From: Chloroflexota bacterium
GTDB taxonomy: Bacteria > Chloroflexota > Dehalococcoidia > DSTF01 > RBG-16-68-14
Direction: 5' to 3'
Length of the DNA stretch: 64,000 nucleotides
Assembly (NCBI GenBank): GCA_003228685.1
Contig: QIFC01000079.1
Coordinates: 1-64,000 of the forward strand
Of this stretch, positions 6,342 to 23,036 are shown piece after piece; position 1 is the stretch's first letter; each line of letters starts with the position of its first letter. Under the pieces are notes generated by a model that had not been told where the DNA came from, made no database searches, and worked only from the letters and a program-made list of their open reading frames with translations. The position numbers and the translations under genes were made by a program.

Positions 6342-6434
6342 CTCGCCCTCTCCCCAGGGTTGCGCTAAACCGGGCAATTGGTAGTAGATCGCCCCTCTCC
6401 CGCGAGCGGGAGAGGGGATGGGGGAGAGGGCGAG
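6342..6434. repeat. Nested palindromic element (CTCGCCCTCTCCCC…GGGGAGAGGGCGAG enclosing CCCCTCTCCCGC-GA-GCGGGAGAGGGG)
   Basis: Outer 14-bp arms 6342-6355/6421-6434; inner 12+2+12 at 6392-6417. Confidence 0.85.

Positions 6435-12391: not shown

Positions 12392-12392
<1 letters not shown>
11895..12392 (-). CDS. tsf: Elongation factor Ts (short form)
   Basis: MAISAAQVKELRELTNAGVMECKNALEEAGGDMAKA; ATG at 12392 overlaps the rpsB stop (TAATG), so the longer 12593 start is rejected. Confidence 0.93.
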
Positions 12393-13153
<761 letters not shown>

Positions 13154-13273: not shown

Positions 13274-13277
13274 TGCG

Positions 13278-13386
13278 GCTAGCCTTTGGGCTAGCTTGCA
13301 GAGGCTTCGCTTCTGCGCCATTATGGCGACCTGACGGTCGCCTTGAAAAACGCGGCTGTCGCTAACGCGACCGCTTCGCGTTCTTC
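13278..13386. repeat. Hairpin array 1 (four consecutive hairpins, TT-linked)
   Basis: GCTAGCC-TTTG-GGCTAGC (13278-13295), TT, GCAGAGG-CTTCG-CTTCTGC (13298-13316), GGCGACC-TGAC-GGTCGCC (13325-13342), TT, GAAAAACGCG…CGCGTTCTTC (13345-13386). Confidence 0.85.
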
Positions 13387-13435
13387 CGCTCGCTCGGGCG
13401 AGCAATCGGCCGGCCTGCGGTTGCGTACCGCCATC

Positions 13436-13492
13436 GCCCCTCTCCCACGAGTGGGAGAGGCCTGCCTGTAGGGGGATGGGAGTGAGGGCGAG
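13436..13492. repeat. Second copy of the CCCTCTCCC-type palindromic element
   Basis: CCTCTCCCAC-GA-GTGGGAGAGG (13439-13460) then GGGGGATGGGAGTGAGGGCGAG; compare 6392-6434. Confidence 0.75.
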
Positions 13493-13537: not shown

Positions 13538-14338
13538 TTAGGAGACGAGCGGGAGCACTATGCCGCTCTCAGGCCGGAACGTGATAGCGAAATCTGCCGG
13601 GCAATCCGTTCCGAGGAACACCTCAAGGCCAATTTCAGGACTAGTGTCTCTGCGATACTCCACCCAGGTGCATCCGTCGCCTCGGTCAGCGATGAAGTAC
13701 TTGCCGTCCTCGCCGAGCTGGATCTGATCCGCTCGTGGTAGACCCATCGGTACGCGTGTGTCCGCCGTAGGTGCTGGTGGCTGTGTGGGTGCGGGAGGCT
13801 GCGTAGGCACGGGTGTGGCGGAGGGCGCAGGCGTGGGCGGCGCGGTTGTGGGCTCGGTGGTTGGCGTTAGCGTTGCCAGCGGAGCCGTCGGGCTTGTGGA
13901 TACGGTGGCGCCAGCCGGGACGTCTGCTCCGGCGTTTGAATCTGTCCTCACGAGCCCCCACACCAGCAGCCCGGCGCCCACCACGACGAGAACGGCTGCG
14001 ATGCCTGCCACTCCGGTCGCGAGCCAGGAGACGTTCGCTCGCCGCCAGGACCACGCCAGCGGAACAGCCGCGGTCGCCCACCATGGGCGCTCCGAAGGCT
14101 CCCAGCGGGCCGCCTCCTCGCGGCTCGATACGCCCAACTTGCTCAGGATCTCAGAGACGTGGTACTTGGCGCCGTCCAGCGTGATGCTCAGCCGCTCCGC
14201 GATCTGCGGGTTCGTTAGCCCTTCGCGGAGTAGCGCCAACACTTCCTCTTCGCGAGGCGTCAGGATGTCCGGGTGAGACGGCCGCCCAGGTCTAGTCATA
14301 TCGCCACCCAGCATAACCGCGCGACGAAATAATTGCAC
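13538..14338 (-). CDS. Membrane-anchored LuxR/GerE-type regulator with Pro/Thr-rich extracytoplasmic linker
   Basis: LTPREEEVLALLREGLTNPQIAERLSITLDGAKYHVSEILSKLGVSSREEA HTH, then one TM segment (VAGIAAVLVVVGAGLLVWGLV) and TPTTEPTTAPPTPAPSATPVPTQPPAPTQ. Confidence 0.8.
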   Translation of the reverse strand: MQLFRRAVMLGGDMTRPGRPSHPDILTPREEEVLALLREGLTNPQIAERLSITLDGAKYHVSEILSKLGVSSREEAARWEPSERPWWATAAVPLAWSWRRANVSWLATGVAGIAAVLVVVGAGLLVWGLVRTDSNAGADVPAGATVSTSPTAPLATLTPTTEPTTAPPTPAPSATPVPTQPPAPTQPPAPTADTRVPMGLPRADQIQLGEDGKYFIADRGDGCTWVEYRRDTSPEIGLEVFLGTDCPADFAITFRPESGIVLPLVS

Positions 14339-14350
14339 TACCCGATGGCG

Positions 14351-14433
14351 GGCGACCTGACGGTCGCCGGCTACTGCTTCGGCAGTAGCTTGAAGAACGC
14401 GGCTGTCGCTGACGCGACCGCGTCGCGTTCTTC
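14351..14433. repeat. Hairpin array 2
   Basis: GGCGACC-TGAC-GGTCGCC (14351-14368), GCTACTGC-TTCG-GCAGTAGC (14370-14389), TT, GAAGAACGCG…CGCGTTCTTC (14392-14433). Confidence 0.85.
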
Positions 14434-14461
14434 CGCACTCAGGCGGCCTGCGGGCTTGCCG

Positions 14462-15199
14462 CTAGCATTCGCTGATCAAAGGCGGGAACTGCTGGTCAGA
14501 CCTCGCCGGCCCCTGGCCATTGGCGGCCACAAGCGCCTCGGCCACGTTGAGCTCCTCCTCCTCTGGTCCGGCAGACACCCTGACAGTCACGTCTCCCATC
14601 CAAAGTCTAAGAGCACCCGAGAGGTACTGCGCATCGGCGCCCCTCACCTGAAATACGGTATCCTCCTTCGCTTCAGGCGCGAAGCCAGTAGGCTGCGCGT
14701 AGCAGTACGGCTCCACCCTTATTTGAAGCGGAACGCGGCACCCTGCCCCAGCCGACGGAGTGCAGGTACCGTACTGGAGAATAACGTGGTCCTCTGGGGG
14801 AGTGAGGTGAGGCCCATAAGAACGGATAATTCCCGTCAGTGGGAGCCCTTGGAACTCTGCTCCAGCCCAATAGAGAGGGAAGTCCTGGAACTCCGTCACA
14901 GACTCTTGGAAAACCGCACTATCGGTGACGGCAACTTTCTTGTCGTCATCAACGATATTCTTCTGCCAGTTCTCCTCTCCGAAGATTGGTCGCCACGCGT
15001 CTCCCACCAGCGAGATGTAGATGGGCGTCCCATCCTCGGGCCTGGCTATGGAGTGCTCCAGTTCCTCACCGGGCGGCGCCGCTAGTCCCGACTGGTCAGC
15101 TGGCTTTGTCTCTCCGCATGAGACGAAGCTAGTGGCCACGAGGATGCCCAGAACGCCGGTTCCTGCAACGACCGCCAGTGCCAGCAATCTCCTCTTCAC
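14462..15199 (-). CDS. Hypothetical secreted/lipoprotein
   Basis: N-terminal MKRRLLALAVVAGTGVLGILVATSFVSCGE signal-like segment with lipobox-like Cys. Confidence 0.6.
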   Translation of the reverse strand: MKRRLLALAVVAGTGVLGILVATSFVSCGETKPADQSGLAAPPGEELEHSIARPEDGTPIYISLVGDAWRPIFGEENWQKNIVDDDKKVAVTDSAVFQESVTEFQDFPLYWAGAEFQGLPLTGIIRSYGPHLTPPEDHVILQYGTCTPSAGAGCRVPLQIRVEPYCYAQPTGFAPEAKEDTVFQVRGADAQYLSGALRLWMGDVTVRVSAGPEEEELNVAEALVAANGQGPARSDQQFPPLISEC

Positions 15200-15382: not shown

Positions 15383-15424
15383 GCAGAACGCGCAGCGTTC
15401 TGCAAGCTGAAGCTTCGCTTCAGC
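15383..15424. repeat. Hairpin array 3 (two hairpins, AA linker), overlapping the permease stop codon
   Basis: GCAGAACGC-GCA-GCGTTCTGC (15383-15403), AA, GCTGAAGC-TTC-GCTTCAGC (15406-15424). Confidence 0.8.
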
Positions 15425-16334: not shown

Positions 16335-16447
16335 TGGTAGGACGCCCTCTCTCGCTGCATTCGCCTTGAAGAACGCGGCTGTCGCTGCGGCGACAGCTTC
16401 GCGTTCTTCCAAGTCGTCGCTTTAGCGACGACCGTCATCGGTAGAAG
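16319..16447. repeat. Hairpin array 4 flanked by diverged direct repeats at the permease/permease junction
   Basis: Direct repeats TAGCGACAGCCGTCATTGGTAG (16319-16340) and TAGCGACGACCGTCATCGGTAG (16423-16444), 19/22 identical; hairpins GAAGAACGCG…CGCGTTCTTC (16368-16409) and GTCGTCGC-TTTA-GCGACGAC (16413-16432). Confidence 0.8.
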
Positions 16448-17409
16448 ACCTTCCCGCCCACCAGCCGGAACTGCGCCAGCGTCAGCCCCAGCATGATCAC
16501 GAACAGCGCCAGCGCCTGCACGGATGCCGCCCCCACGCGGAACGGCGGCTCGAAGCCGGTCTGGTAAATCGAGTAGAGCAGGACGTTGCTCGCGTCAGCG
16601 GGCCCGCCCTGCGTGAGGATCTGGATCTGGCCGAACGACTGAAACGCGAAGATCATGCCCACCACCGACGCGAAGAAGAGCGTCGGCGACAGCATGGGGA
16701 GCGTGACGTGCCAAAACTCCGACCAGCGGCCCGCGCCATCGATGCGCGCGCTCTCGTACAGCTCGTCCGGGATCGTCTGCAGGCCCGCGAGCACAATGAT
16801 CGTGAAGAGACCGATGTTCATCCAGACCGTCGCCAGCGACACCGAGATCAGCGCCCAGTTCGGGTCGATGAACCAGGCCGCGAACAGGTCCCAGCCTGTC
16901 GCGCGTTCGCCAACGGCCCAGCCGCCGTCGTCCAGCCAGTTCACCGCCGGGATGCCGACAGCTCCCAGCATGTCATTGAGCACGCCGATACTCGGGTGCA
17001 GCAGCACGAGCCAGAGGACGGCGCTGATCGCGACCGATGCGGCCAGCGTTGAGGAGAAAATCGTGCGGAAAATGACGATCCCCGGCAGTTTCTGGTTCGC
17101 GATTATCGCCAGGAACGTTCCGATCGCCAGCGCCGGGACCACCGTGTAGAGCGTGAACGTCCCCGTCACCACCAGCGTGCTGACGAAGTCGGACGACGCG
17201 AGCACGTCACGGTACTGTTCGAAGCCAACGTAGATCTGGCGCGTGCGGAACGGGTTGCTGATGAAGAAACCGAGATAGACGGACTTGCCGAGCGGATAGA
17301 AGACGAACGCCCCGAAGAGGACCATAGAGGGGAGCAGGAACGGCAGCGCAACGAGGAACTCGCGAACGGGGCGAGGCAGCAAACGCCTCGCCGGTGCGGC
17401 GGCGCTCAC
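16435..17409 (-). CDS. ABC transporter permease (MalF/UgpA-like)
   Basis: ESARIDGAGRWSEFWHVTLPMLSPTLFF EAA loop; multi-TM. Confidence 0.88.
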   Translation of the reverse strand: MSAAAPARRLLPRPVREFLVALPFLLPSMVLFGAFVFYPLGKSVYLGFFISNPFRTRQIYVGFEQYRDVLASSDFVSTLVVTGTFTLYTVVPALAIGTFLAIIANQKLPGIVIFRTIFSSTLAASVAISAVLWLVLLHPSIGVLNDMLGAVGIPAVNWLDDGGWAVGERATGWDLFAAWFIDPNWALISVSLATVWMNIGLFTIIVLAGLQTIPDELYESARIDGAGRWSEFWHVTLPMLSPTLFFASVVGMIFAFQSFGQIQILTQGGPADASNVLLYSIYQTGFEPPFRVGAASVQALALFVIMLGLTLAQFRLVGGKVFYR

Positions 17410-18497
17410 GGGCCGATCCTCTCCTTCGTCGACGCGTTGAACAGTTGCACGTGATGAGGCGCAACCGCGAGCTGGAACGTCGTTCCGTGTTCGATCTTCT
17501 CCGATGCGGCCAGCCGCGCGATCACCGAGGCGCCCTCGATCGCTACGGTCACGTGTTGCTCGCTGCCGAGCGACTCGACGAGGTCCACCTTGCCTTTGAA
17601 CGCCGCGGCCGGCTCCTTCACGCTCAGATCCAGGTGCTCCGGCCGGACGCCCATCACGAGCGCGCTCGCGCCCGAGGCTTCCAGCTGCTTCGCGAGCGCG
17701 TCCGGGAGCGTCACGTCGACGCCGGCAGCACGGACGCCCGCCTTGCCATCGACCTGCACGGGCTCCGCGTCGAGCAAGTTCATCGCGGGGCTGCCGATGA
17801 ACTCCGCGACGAAGAGGTTCTCCGGACGGTCGTAGACCTCCTGTGGCGAGCCGGCCTGCTGGAGACGCCCCTCGTTCAGCACCGCGACGCGGGCGCCCAT
17901 CGTCATCGCTTCCACTTGATCGTGCGTGACGTAGATGAAGGTCGCGCCCAGCTCGCGATGCAGCCGGATCAGCTCCGCTCGCATCTGCACGCGCATCTTG
18001 GAGTCGAGGTTCGAGAGCGGCTCGTCCATCAGGAACACCTGCGGCCGGCGCACGATCGCCCGGCCCAACGCCACGCGCTGCCGCTGGCCGCCCGAGAGCT
18101 GCCCGGGCTTGCGCTTCAACAGCTCATCGATGCCGAGCGTAGCCGCCGCGTCGCGCACCAGCCGGTCGATCTCGCCCTTGCTGTGTTTGCGCATGCGCAG
18201 GCCGAACGCGATGTTGTTGTAGACGCTCATGTGCGGGTAGAGTGCGTAGCTCTGGAAGACCATCGCCAAGTCGCGGTCCTTGGCCGGCACCTCCGTCACC
18301 AGCCGGTCGCCGATGTGGATGTCGCCCTCCGACGGCTCCTCCAGCCCCGCCGCGATGCGGAGCGCCGTCGTCTTGCCGCAGCCGGACGGGCCGAGGAGCA
18401 CGAAGAACTCTTCGTCCTGAACCTCCAGCGTGAGGTCGCGCACGGCGTAGGCGTCGCCGAACCGCTTGTTGATGCCTTCGAAGAAGACCCGGGCCAA
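17406..18497 (-). CDS. ABC transporter ATP-binding protein (MalK/UgpC-like)
   Basis: Walker A GPSGCGKTT, LSGGQRQRVALGRAI, DEPLSNLDSKMR, C-terminal TOBE-like region. Confidence 0.92.
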   Translation of the reverse strand: MARVFFEGINKRFGDAYAVRDLTLEVQDEEFFVLLGPSGCGKTTALRIAAGLEEPSEGDIHIGDRLVTEVPAKDRDLAMVFQSYALYPHMSVYNNIAFGLRMRKHSKGEIDRLVRDAAATLGIDELLKRKPGQLSGGQRQRVALGRAIVRRPQVFLMDEPLSNLDSKMRVQMRAELIRLHRELGATFIYVTHDQVEAMTMGARVAVLNEGRLQQAGSPQEVYDRPENLFVAEFIGSPAMNLLDAEPVQVDGKAGVRAAGVDVTLPDALAKQLEASGASALVMGVRPEHLDLSVKEPAAAFKGKVDLVESLGSEQHVTVAIEGASVIARLAASEKIEHGTTFQLAVAPHHVQLFNASTKERIGP

Positions 18498-19509: not shown

Positions 19510-20901
19510 TTACACACAGCTGTGGTTGAACTGCAAAATCACTCCCAGTATGTCGTTCGCCAGGTCGATCACGCCGTCCGGCGGCCCCATGTTCCAGGTG
19601 TTGGCCCCGATCTGTGGCCCGCGGTCGAACCGCACGTCGTACTCTGGCTCAGTGCCGAGCGGCGCGAAGCGCACGATCACCCCTAAGATGTCGTTCGCCA
19701 GGTCGATCACGCCGTCCCGCGTGAGCGACTGGCCGGGGCCGTACACGTCGTAGTATTCGTTCGGGTCCTTGTAGTCGCGCCGTCCGCCCTGTGTCTCGTC
19801 AGGGCCGTTCTCGTGCTCGTCTGGGCAGCCGTCGCCGTCGGTGTCGCCTGGCTTGGGGAGCTTGTTCGGCACCAATTTTTCGGCCTCCGTGCAGTAAGTG
19901 TAAAGGGAATCGACAAACTGCACCTCAAGCCCGAACTGTGTCCGGATGTTTACCAGAGCCTCGACGGGTGTGCCCGCCATGGGGAGATAGCACGTCAGCG
20001 CCGGCGACCCTGTTATACCGGCCCCGTCTTTCAGCGAGGGAACGCACACCATCATTCTGATGCCAAAGATAGATATCGTCTCAGATATGAACTGGTTGGT
20101 GATGTCCACGTCTTGGCCAGGGCCCACGGTGGTTACACTTTCGTAGCAGGCATAATAGAGGGACGAACCCGGGGGACTCCCGTCCTTCGTCGCCTGCACG
20201 CACAATTTAGTGAGCGGACCGATGACATGCGCAGCCACGCCATACTGGTCCTCTACGTCAACCGTCACGTCGGGGTCGACCGGGGTGGTGGCGTTGAAGC
20301 AGCGCATCGTAGGCAGAAATGGGATGCCGTCACCGTTCTTTCCGGTGGGCGGACACAGGGAGTATCCTCCATCGACGGTAACGAGCGCGCCATCGGGCAT
20401 GAACTGGTTCTCGACGTTCACGGACACGCCGAGAGAGGGCCCGCCGGCTATGTAGCACGTGTAGTTCGCCGGCGGCGGCACCTTGATGCTACCGGTGAAG
20501 GTCCCACTTCCAGGAGGAGTCGTTGAGAATGTTCCGTTCATCGTGGAGCCGTCCGTGTTTCCGGTAGACGTTACAGACAGGTTCCCAAATATGCCGCCGG
20601 TAAGCAGACCGTCGAGCGAGAAGTCGCCCGTTGCTTTGGTTATGGAACCGGTGTATGGACCGCTGCCGGAAGACACGCACGACGCATCTGCGGTGAGCGA
20701 GCTTCCTGTCTGCACGATGTTTAACGAACAGGTATCACCTCCGGCGGTCCCTGAGAGCGACACATTCCACTTGCCCGTCATGTCGATGGCGGCTTCGGCC
20801 GTCCTGTCCTGATGCAATGGCCCGCCCAGCATCAATATGAGCGCCGCAAACAGCGCGGCCACCAGTGCCCACTTCCCGTAGCGATTTGCGTTAGTAAACA
20901 T
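19510..20901 (-). CDS. Secreted protein with TSP3-like Ca-binding stretch and two dockerin-like motifs
   Basis: Signal-like N-terminus; GDTDGDGCPDEHENGPDET; DGVIDLANDILGVIVRF and DGVIDLANDILGVILQF. Confidence 0.7.
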   Translation of the reverse strand: MFTNANRYGKWALVAALFAALILMLGGPLHQDRTAEAAIDMTGKWNVSLSGTAGGDTCSLNIVQTGSSLTADASCVSSGSGPYTGSITKATGDFSLDGLLTGGIFGNLSVTSTGNTDGSTMNGTFSTTPPGSGTFTGSIKVPPPANYTCYIAGGPSLGVSVNVENQFMPDGALVTVDGGYSLCPPTGKNGDGIPFLPTMRCFNATTPVDPDVTVDVEDQYGVAAHVIGPLTKLCVQATKDGSPPGSSLYYACYESVTTVGPGQDVDITNQFISETISIFGIRMMVCVPSLKDGAGITGSPALTCYLPMAGTPVEALVNIRTQFGLEVQFVDSLYTYCTEAEKLVPNKLPKPGDTDGDGCPDEHENGPDETQGGRRDYKDPNEYYDVYGPGQSLTRDGVIDLANDILGVIVRFAPLGTEPEYDVRFDRGPQIGANTWNMGPPDGVIDLANDILGVILQFNHSCV

Positions 20902-22986: not shown

Positions 22987-23036
22987 GGAGTTGCGCGGCA
23001 ACTCCAAGCTGCCCGTCAGGGCAGCCGCTTCCGGCT
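22987..23036. repeat. Hairpin array 5
   Basis: GGAGTTGC-GCG-GCAACTCC (22987-23005), AA, GCTGCCC-GTCA-GGGCAGC (23008-23025), AGCCG-CTTC-CGGCT (23023-23036). Confidence 0.8.

Follow-up and report, generated by a model that had tools for sequence, protein, structure and literature searches.

The hairpins at 14351–14433 of the window, by which we mean the whole 64,000-nucleotide stretch of Chloroflexota DNA analyzed here, raise the question of what kind of sequence is reused there and how its stems stay paired. An earlier note on this DNA described them as a second hairpin array that reuses two modules of an array at 13325, swaps in a new one and carries a repaired stem, and attributed this to modular shuffling plus selection or copying that maintains pairing. 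Our analyses indicate that the array is probably a local cluster formed by a mobile palindromic element that is REP-like and non-autonomous; we refer to this element as the double-hairpin element (DHE). In one orientation, the DHE consists of GCC(A), hairpin HP1 (GCAGnnnC, loop, GnnnCTGC), a (C)AA linker, hairpin HP2 (GCTnnCC, loop, GGnnAGC) and CG. The stems are perfect, with 8–10 bp in HP1 and 7–9 bp in HP2, the loops are usually 3–5 nt and the unit is about 40 nt long.

The hairpins of the window are intergenic. The local genes are all on the minus strand and include rpsB (12392–13153), a LuxR-type regulator (GerE; 13538–14338), a gene for an unassigned protein (14462–15199), malG-type and malF-type ABC permease genes and an ABC ATPase gene (17406–18497); names of genes without a Pfam match were read from the translations, and no tRNA was found in the window. 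The genome that contains the window (G000) shares a genus with G001 and G002, while G003 and G005 represent sister genera. The features assigned are as follows, with the evidence in parentheses.

13278–13316, minus strand: DHE upstream of rpsB, with HP2 gctagcc..ggctagc, TT and HP1 gcagaggc..gcttctgc (model match 13274–13321, 50 bits).
13325–13386, minus strand: copy 1, with HP2 at 13325–13342, TT and a nested HP1 at 13345–13386 that has one outer mismatch (14.5 bits, copy alignment).
14351–14368, minus strand: HP2-type hairpin ggcgacc(TGAC)ggtcgcc, the same as 13325–13342 (sequence, folding).
14370–14389, minus strand: additional HP2-type hairpin gctactgc(TTCG)gcagtagc, the 21-nt insertion of copy 2 (sequence, folding, copy alignment).
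14390–14391, minus strand: HP1–HP2 linker TT, AA on the element strand (sequence).
14392–14433, minus strand: HP1 of copy 2, with outer arms 14392–14401 and 14424–14433 and a nested hairpin at 14402–14421 (sequence, folding, copy alignment).
15383–15424, plus strand: DHE at the malG 3′ end, with HP1 gcagaacgc..gcgttctgc, AA and HP2 gctgaagc..gcttcagc, including the malG stop codon (hairpin search, model).
16368–16432, plus strand: copy 3 at the malF/malG junction, with a nested HP1 at 16368–16409, CAA and a hairpin at 16413–16432; outgroup genomes lack it.
22987–23025, plus strand: another DHE (hairpin search, 53.9 bits).

The module GGCGACCTGACGGTCGCC was found exactly at both 14351–14368 and 13325–13342, as the earlier note had stated; shuffled controls averaged 0.28 matches to it and reached two matches in 3 of 100 cases. 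The hairpin with the UUCG loop described as new, GCTACTGC-TTCG-GCAGTAGC, is indeed present and followed by TT. The third hairpin is homologous to the 13345 module, as claimed: its arms, GAAGAACGCG...CGCGTTCTTC, are complementary at 10 of 10 positions, compared to 9 of 10 in copy 1 (13345–13354/13377–13386). Single-strand folds of 14340–14445 (z = −5.6) and 13274–13420 (z = −5.8) were each equaled in 0 of 200 shuffles. Further analyses revealed several features beyond those listed in that note, namely a third copy, a nested inner hairpin with a T.C mismatch, and the hairpins at 13278–13316, 15383–15424 and 16413–16432. The core GCGGCTGTCGCTRACGCGACCG occurs three times with ≤3 mismatches (0.00 expected), and the third copy of the 42-nt module, at 16368–16409, is the best paired of the three, both its outer and inner stems being perfect. 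The three copies span 3.1 kb, and a nucleotide search found no others in the assembly (3.53 Mb, 128 contigs, 87% complete). In this module, the inner hairpin GCTGTCGC/GCGACCGC is nested as a unit in the loop of the outer hairpin.

Aligned on the element strand, copy 2 differs from copy 1 by a 21-nt insertion and a few point differences. The insertion, one more hairpin plus C, separates the AA linker from the ggcgacc hairpin; copy 3 lacks that hairpin and is degenerate beyond the linker. The proposed repair of the stem in copy 2 was not supported. Because the GAAGAACGC/GCGTTCTTC arm is common to copies 2 and 3 and the malG hairpin of G001, the mismatch of copy 1 is more likely a derived, decayed A, judging from the sequences compared. 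Nor is copy 2 fully repaired, given that its inner hairpin keeps one T.C mismatch, which is also found in copy 1. All substitutions among the three copies are one-sided or in loops, with 0 compensatory double changes; therefore, the three copies demonstrate copying, and repair is unsupported. The array at 14351–14433 is a rearranged member of the genome-wide DHE repeat. The hairpin gctcgc(TCGG)gcgagc at 13388–13403 adjoins copy 1 and belongs to no complete element assigned.

The DHE repeat emerged from an unbiased search of sampled stretches for hairpins with a perfect stem of ≥7 and a loop of 3–5. In 864 kb of G000, this search identified 22 pairs of hairpins in tandem, compared to 0 in a Markov control; it found 4 pairs in 209 kb of G002 and none in 228 kb of G005. 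The pairs share the linker (C)AA/TT(G) and the outer words GCAG..CTGC and GCT..AGC, none of which was demanded by the search, so that its result is free of model bias for linker and outer words. The pairs are preceded by GCC(A) and followed by C and then G, the first position after the pair being C in 111 of 114 elements. The loop of HP1 is at least 14 nt long in 16 of the 114 and is mostly filled by an HP2-like hairpin; together with the derivation of copy 2 from copy 1 plus a 21-nt hairpin, this bears out the copying implied by modular shuffling.

Among 135 distinct members, 97.2% of cells were paired, compared to 76.6% after shuffling, and both sides had changed in 301 cells, compared to 70 in the shuffles; pairing fell to 24–41% when the partner was slid by 1–3 columns. 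In a largely separate replicate set, about half of which came from an Acidimicrobiaceae metagenome-assembled genome (MAG), 98.2 vs. 73.4% of cells were paired and 229 vs. 63 double changes were found. These covariation figures lean toward structure because the members were retrieved with a structure model. Within this limit, pairing is maintained across the DHE family while stem sequences vary. The suggestion that selection or copying maintains pairing is thus supported for the family, and compensation between arms is seen there and not among the three copies of the window. The stem families of the DHEs are diverse, and neighboring DHEs resemble each other locally (permutation, 2/1000). G000 and G001 have elements at one and the same site upstream of rplS that differ by compensated pairs (GCAG/CTGC vs. 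GGAG/CTCC; GCTG/CAGC vs. GCCG/CGGC); either the pairs changed in a compensatory manner, or another copy may have taken the place of the element.

Strong covariation would also be expected if the DHEs were a family of structured non-coding RNAs serving a function in the cell. The DHE, however, had no Rfam match at the gathering threshold (the best one, P37, had 26.5 bits vs. a cut-off of 50 and was judged to be a chance match), is present in about 100 copies, has unconserved loops and was seen in no conserved gene neighborhood, and we consider such an RNA family very improbable. Selection for an RNA function is not needed, as the copying of a mobile palindrome accounts for the same data.

The distribution of the DHE was examined with a covariance model (R1) built from nine elements, with a fixed-layout seed and N padding in linker and loop. 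Genome-wide, R1 gave 134, 65 and 97 matches at E ≤ 1 in the three members of the genus, and 0–7 weak matches, which is near chance, in each of 37 further genomes from the family, order and class. At E ≤ 0.001 and with stricter filters, 400 genomes of the phylum yielded G000 and three single matches only. A 20-base pattern compared with 84,980 species genomes revealed copies in the "Chloroflexi bacterium" MAGs B85T3L11 and B76T1B5 (apparently G001 and G002) and in an uncultured Acidimicrobiaceae MAG (G444), in which R1 found 117 copies at E ≤ 0.01. The Acidimicrobiaceae label is used as deposited, and we take it to place this DHE-rich MAG in Actinomycetota. Single matches in Deltaproteobacteria, Heliomarina and three distant Chloroflexota were judged to be isolated or due to chance. 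Viral contigs yielded no DHE copies, and plasmids and phages gave nothing convincing; a nucleotide search of 60 relatives with the array itself returned one weak off-target match only.

Comparison of the same loci in relatives showed that the malF/malG junction carries differing hairpins in G000, G001 and G002 and none in G003 and G005; in G001 and G002 they fall within the N-terminal reading frame of malG. In front of rpsB, the hairpin pair of G002 occupies another position, and G005 lacks one. At L094:5440–5600 of G001, the malG N-terminus appears to be duplicated with its hairpin pair beside an intact malG start.

In the sampled stretches, which were also used for the hairpin survey and are 85% coding according to a home-made gene caller, 109 of the 114 DHEs are intergenic. 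Of these 109, 33 are no more than 15 nt away from a gene 3′ end, where about 7 would be expected (about 4-fold over-representation), compared to 7 DHEs at gene 5′ ends, where about 7 would be expected. DHEs are about two-fold in excess in convergent intergenic DNA and in deficit in divergent intergenic DNA. Such a placement, together with the conserved pairing, would be expected if the hairpins were tandem transcription terminators or stabilizers of mRNA 3′ ends that are under selection and multiply through their usefulness after genes. An intrinsic terminator, i.e., a GC-rich hairpin with a T run, was rejected: no T tract is present, and the 3′ flank, beginning with C as described above, is mostly CG. 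A terminator function is unlikely because, besides lacking a T run, DHEs occur in both orientations relative to the gene, and some copies are located within the N-terminus of malG or in 5′ regions, namely those of rpsB and rplS. Moreover, a housekeeping terminator would not predict absence from sister genera or the target duplications described below. We therefore regard selection as terminators or stabilizers as an unlikely origin of the repeat, although a secondary role of the DHE in mRNA 3′ ends is conceivable.

Direct target duplications flank 7 of the 114 elements vs. 0 of 342 mismatched controls at the same score threshold, and 7 of 50 elements in a second set vs. 0 of 200 controls. The pooled duplications (14 of 164 DHEs; 0 of 542 controls) are mostly 34–84 bp long, and about 91% of the DHEs have no recognizable duplication. 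For example, GTGATCCTGCAGTTCAACCACAGGTGCGTATAGG is found on both sides of a DHE that directly follows the stop codon of the gene concerned. Arrays of the form X-DHE-X-DHE-X were seen in both phyla; in one of them, a gene 3′ end that is single in G002 is threefold in G000, with DHEs between the repeats. The members of one array are non-independent events for which insertion and later amplification are inseparable in these data. The X-DHE-X arrays could stem from tandem duplication after insertion, and some repeat units may have been amplified in tandem after a first insertion. In G444, units of DHE plus target form long arrays in tandem at C18:4595–5153 and C41:2860–3452, the former having a period of 123 bp with 84 bp that are target-like.

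Replication template switching could leave perfect stems of altered sequence, nested hairpins, neighbors that resemble each other locally and flanking duplications that vary in length; in that case, the hairpins would be born de novo by snap-back synthesis, with tandem duplication as a by-product and no transposing unit. Local snap-back synthesis is disfavored because it would not create words common to unrelated loci, and unrelated loci in two phyla share GCAG..CTGC, CAA, GCT..AGC and the C after HP2. We consider this origin quite improbable; snap-back synthesis could act on DHE stems afterwards.

A mobile palindromic element remains our preferred explanation. We infer that the DHE transposes actively via a single-stranded hairpin intermediate and that a putative trans-acting enzyme recognizes its structure. 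The element would insert between genes, preferably just behind a stop codon, and insertion would duplicate a stretch of target DNA of the length given above. After landing, it may gain hairpins, with an HP2-like unit entering the HP1 loop or settling beside HP2, and target-element units may be amplified in tandem. The DHE of the window would have spread locally to the three sites, with one copy taking up the extra hairpin. No enzyme that would mobilize the DHE was found; Y1_Tnp (PF01797) of the RAYT superfamily is present without enrichment in the genus, and no DHE was found at either of the two Y1_Tnp loci checked there. Points against the mobile reading are this missing enzyme, the lack of a recognizable duplication at most DHEs and the diverse stem families, which are unlike those of a recently active single-source element.

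REPs and REPINs are high-copy palindromes of 20–40 bp tagged with GTAG or CGTC, often with stems of 8–9 bp, that are found behind genes and between convergent ones, commonly in the form of dimers or clusters; the CGTC REPs have no known transposase and frequently a CCA end (PMC3733652, PMC3116915). Like them, the DHE is short, extragenic, palindromic, present in high copy number and enriched at the 3′ ends of genes. In contrast to them, it has flanks of GCC(A) and CG(T) instead of GTAG at the palindrome foot, consists of two unlike hairpins that are joined by a CAA linker and always arranged head to tail in the same order, and has long target duplications and nested hairpins. Compared to CGTC REPs (CGTC tag, 8–9 bp stem, 4–5 nt loop, CCA tail), the DHE contains CGTC only in a minority, its loops are commonly 3 nt, and its pair is flanked by CCA in front and CG(T) behind, which is the reversed order.

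Mitochondrial double-hairpin elements of Allomyces, other fungi and sponges are tandem stem-loops with species-specific insertions and inferred mobility, those of Allomyces being reported without flanking duplications (PMC2800124). The DHE has adjacent stem-loops, variable sequence and lineage-specific insertions as well, a likeness of form that is no evidence for a shared descent, but it resides in bacterial chromosomes and has flanking duplications. YPAL/RU-2, like other bacterial MITEs, is a palindromic, mostly intergenic repeat, with a length of about 168 bp and target-site duplications varying from 3 to 26 bp for YPAL, and Rickettsia palindromic elements (RPEs; 105–146 bp) are known from protein-coding genes, where they are in-frame (PMC2229807). 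The DHE, which is also palindromic and mostly intergenic with target duplications of variable length, differs from YPAL in its length of about 40 bp, its longer duplications and its lack of whole-unit terminal inverted repeats. It is RPE-like in being in-frame in the malG N-terminus of G001 and G002, whereas DHEs are mostly intergenic. Unlike a MITE, the DHE is spanned by no inverted repeat, and no transposase was found for it.

A search of the literature outside subscription journals found no such element described for Chloroflexota or Acidimicrobiia. The best reading is that the DHE is a REP-like mobile palindrome of new architecture. That it also constitutes a novel class of mobile elements in bacteria, i.e., a 40-nt double hairpin of two phyla that is moved by a putative enzyme (or via an RNA or single-stranded DNA intermediate), makes long, variable target duplications and gains hairpins singly, so that stems diverge while the fold is kept, is a tentative proposal that we consider possible but rather doubtful. 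If the mobile reading is correct, the DHE would join the small mobile palindromes as the bacterial equivalent of mitochondrial double-hairpin elements. Long target duplications and nested hairpins would give it an unusual signature, and its high copy numbers in members of two phyla look like the result of horizontal movement or of shared machinery; comparison of genomes with and without the DHE would make the movement of tag-less REP-like elements testable.

Other repeats were also noticed. One is a multi-copy domain at the C-terminus of secreted proteins; it contains two DGVIDLxNDILGVIxxF..C* repeats with calcium-loop-like motifs that resemble dockerin or thrombospondin type-3 repeats, and the protein of the window had no Pfam match. 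It is found at 19510–20901 (minus strand) of the window, at L204:1650–1985 and L204:8180–8514, and at dozens of sites in G000 and G002, and DHEs often follow genes with this domain. A second intergenic repeated hairpin, distinct from the DHE, consists of CCCCTCTCCC..GGGAGAGGGG with GTGAGGG nearby and occurs at 6392–6417 and 13437–13460 of the window, at L086:3405–3430 and in L203.
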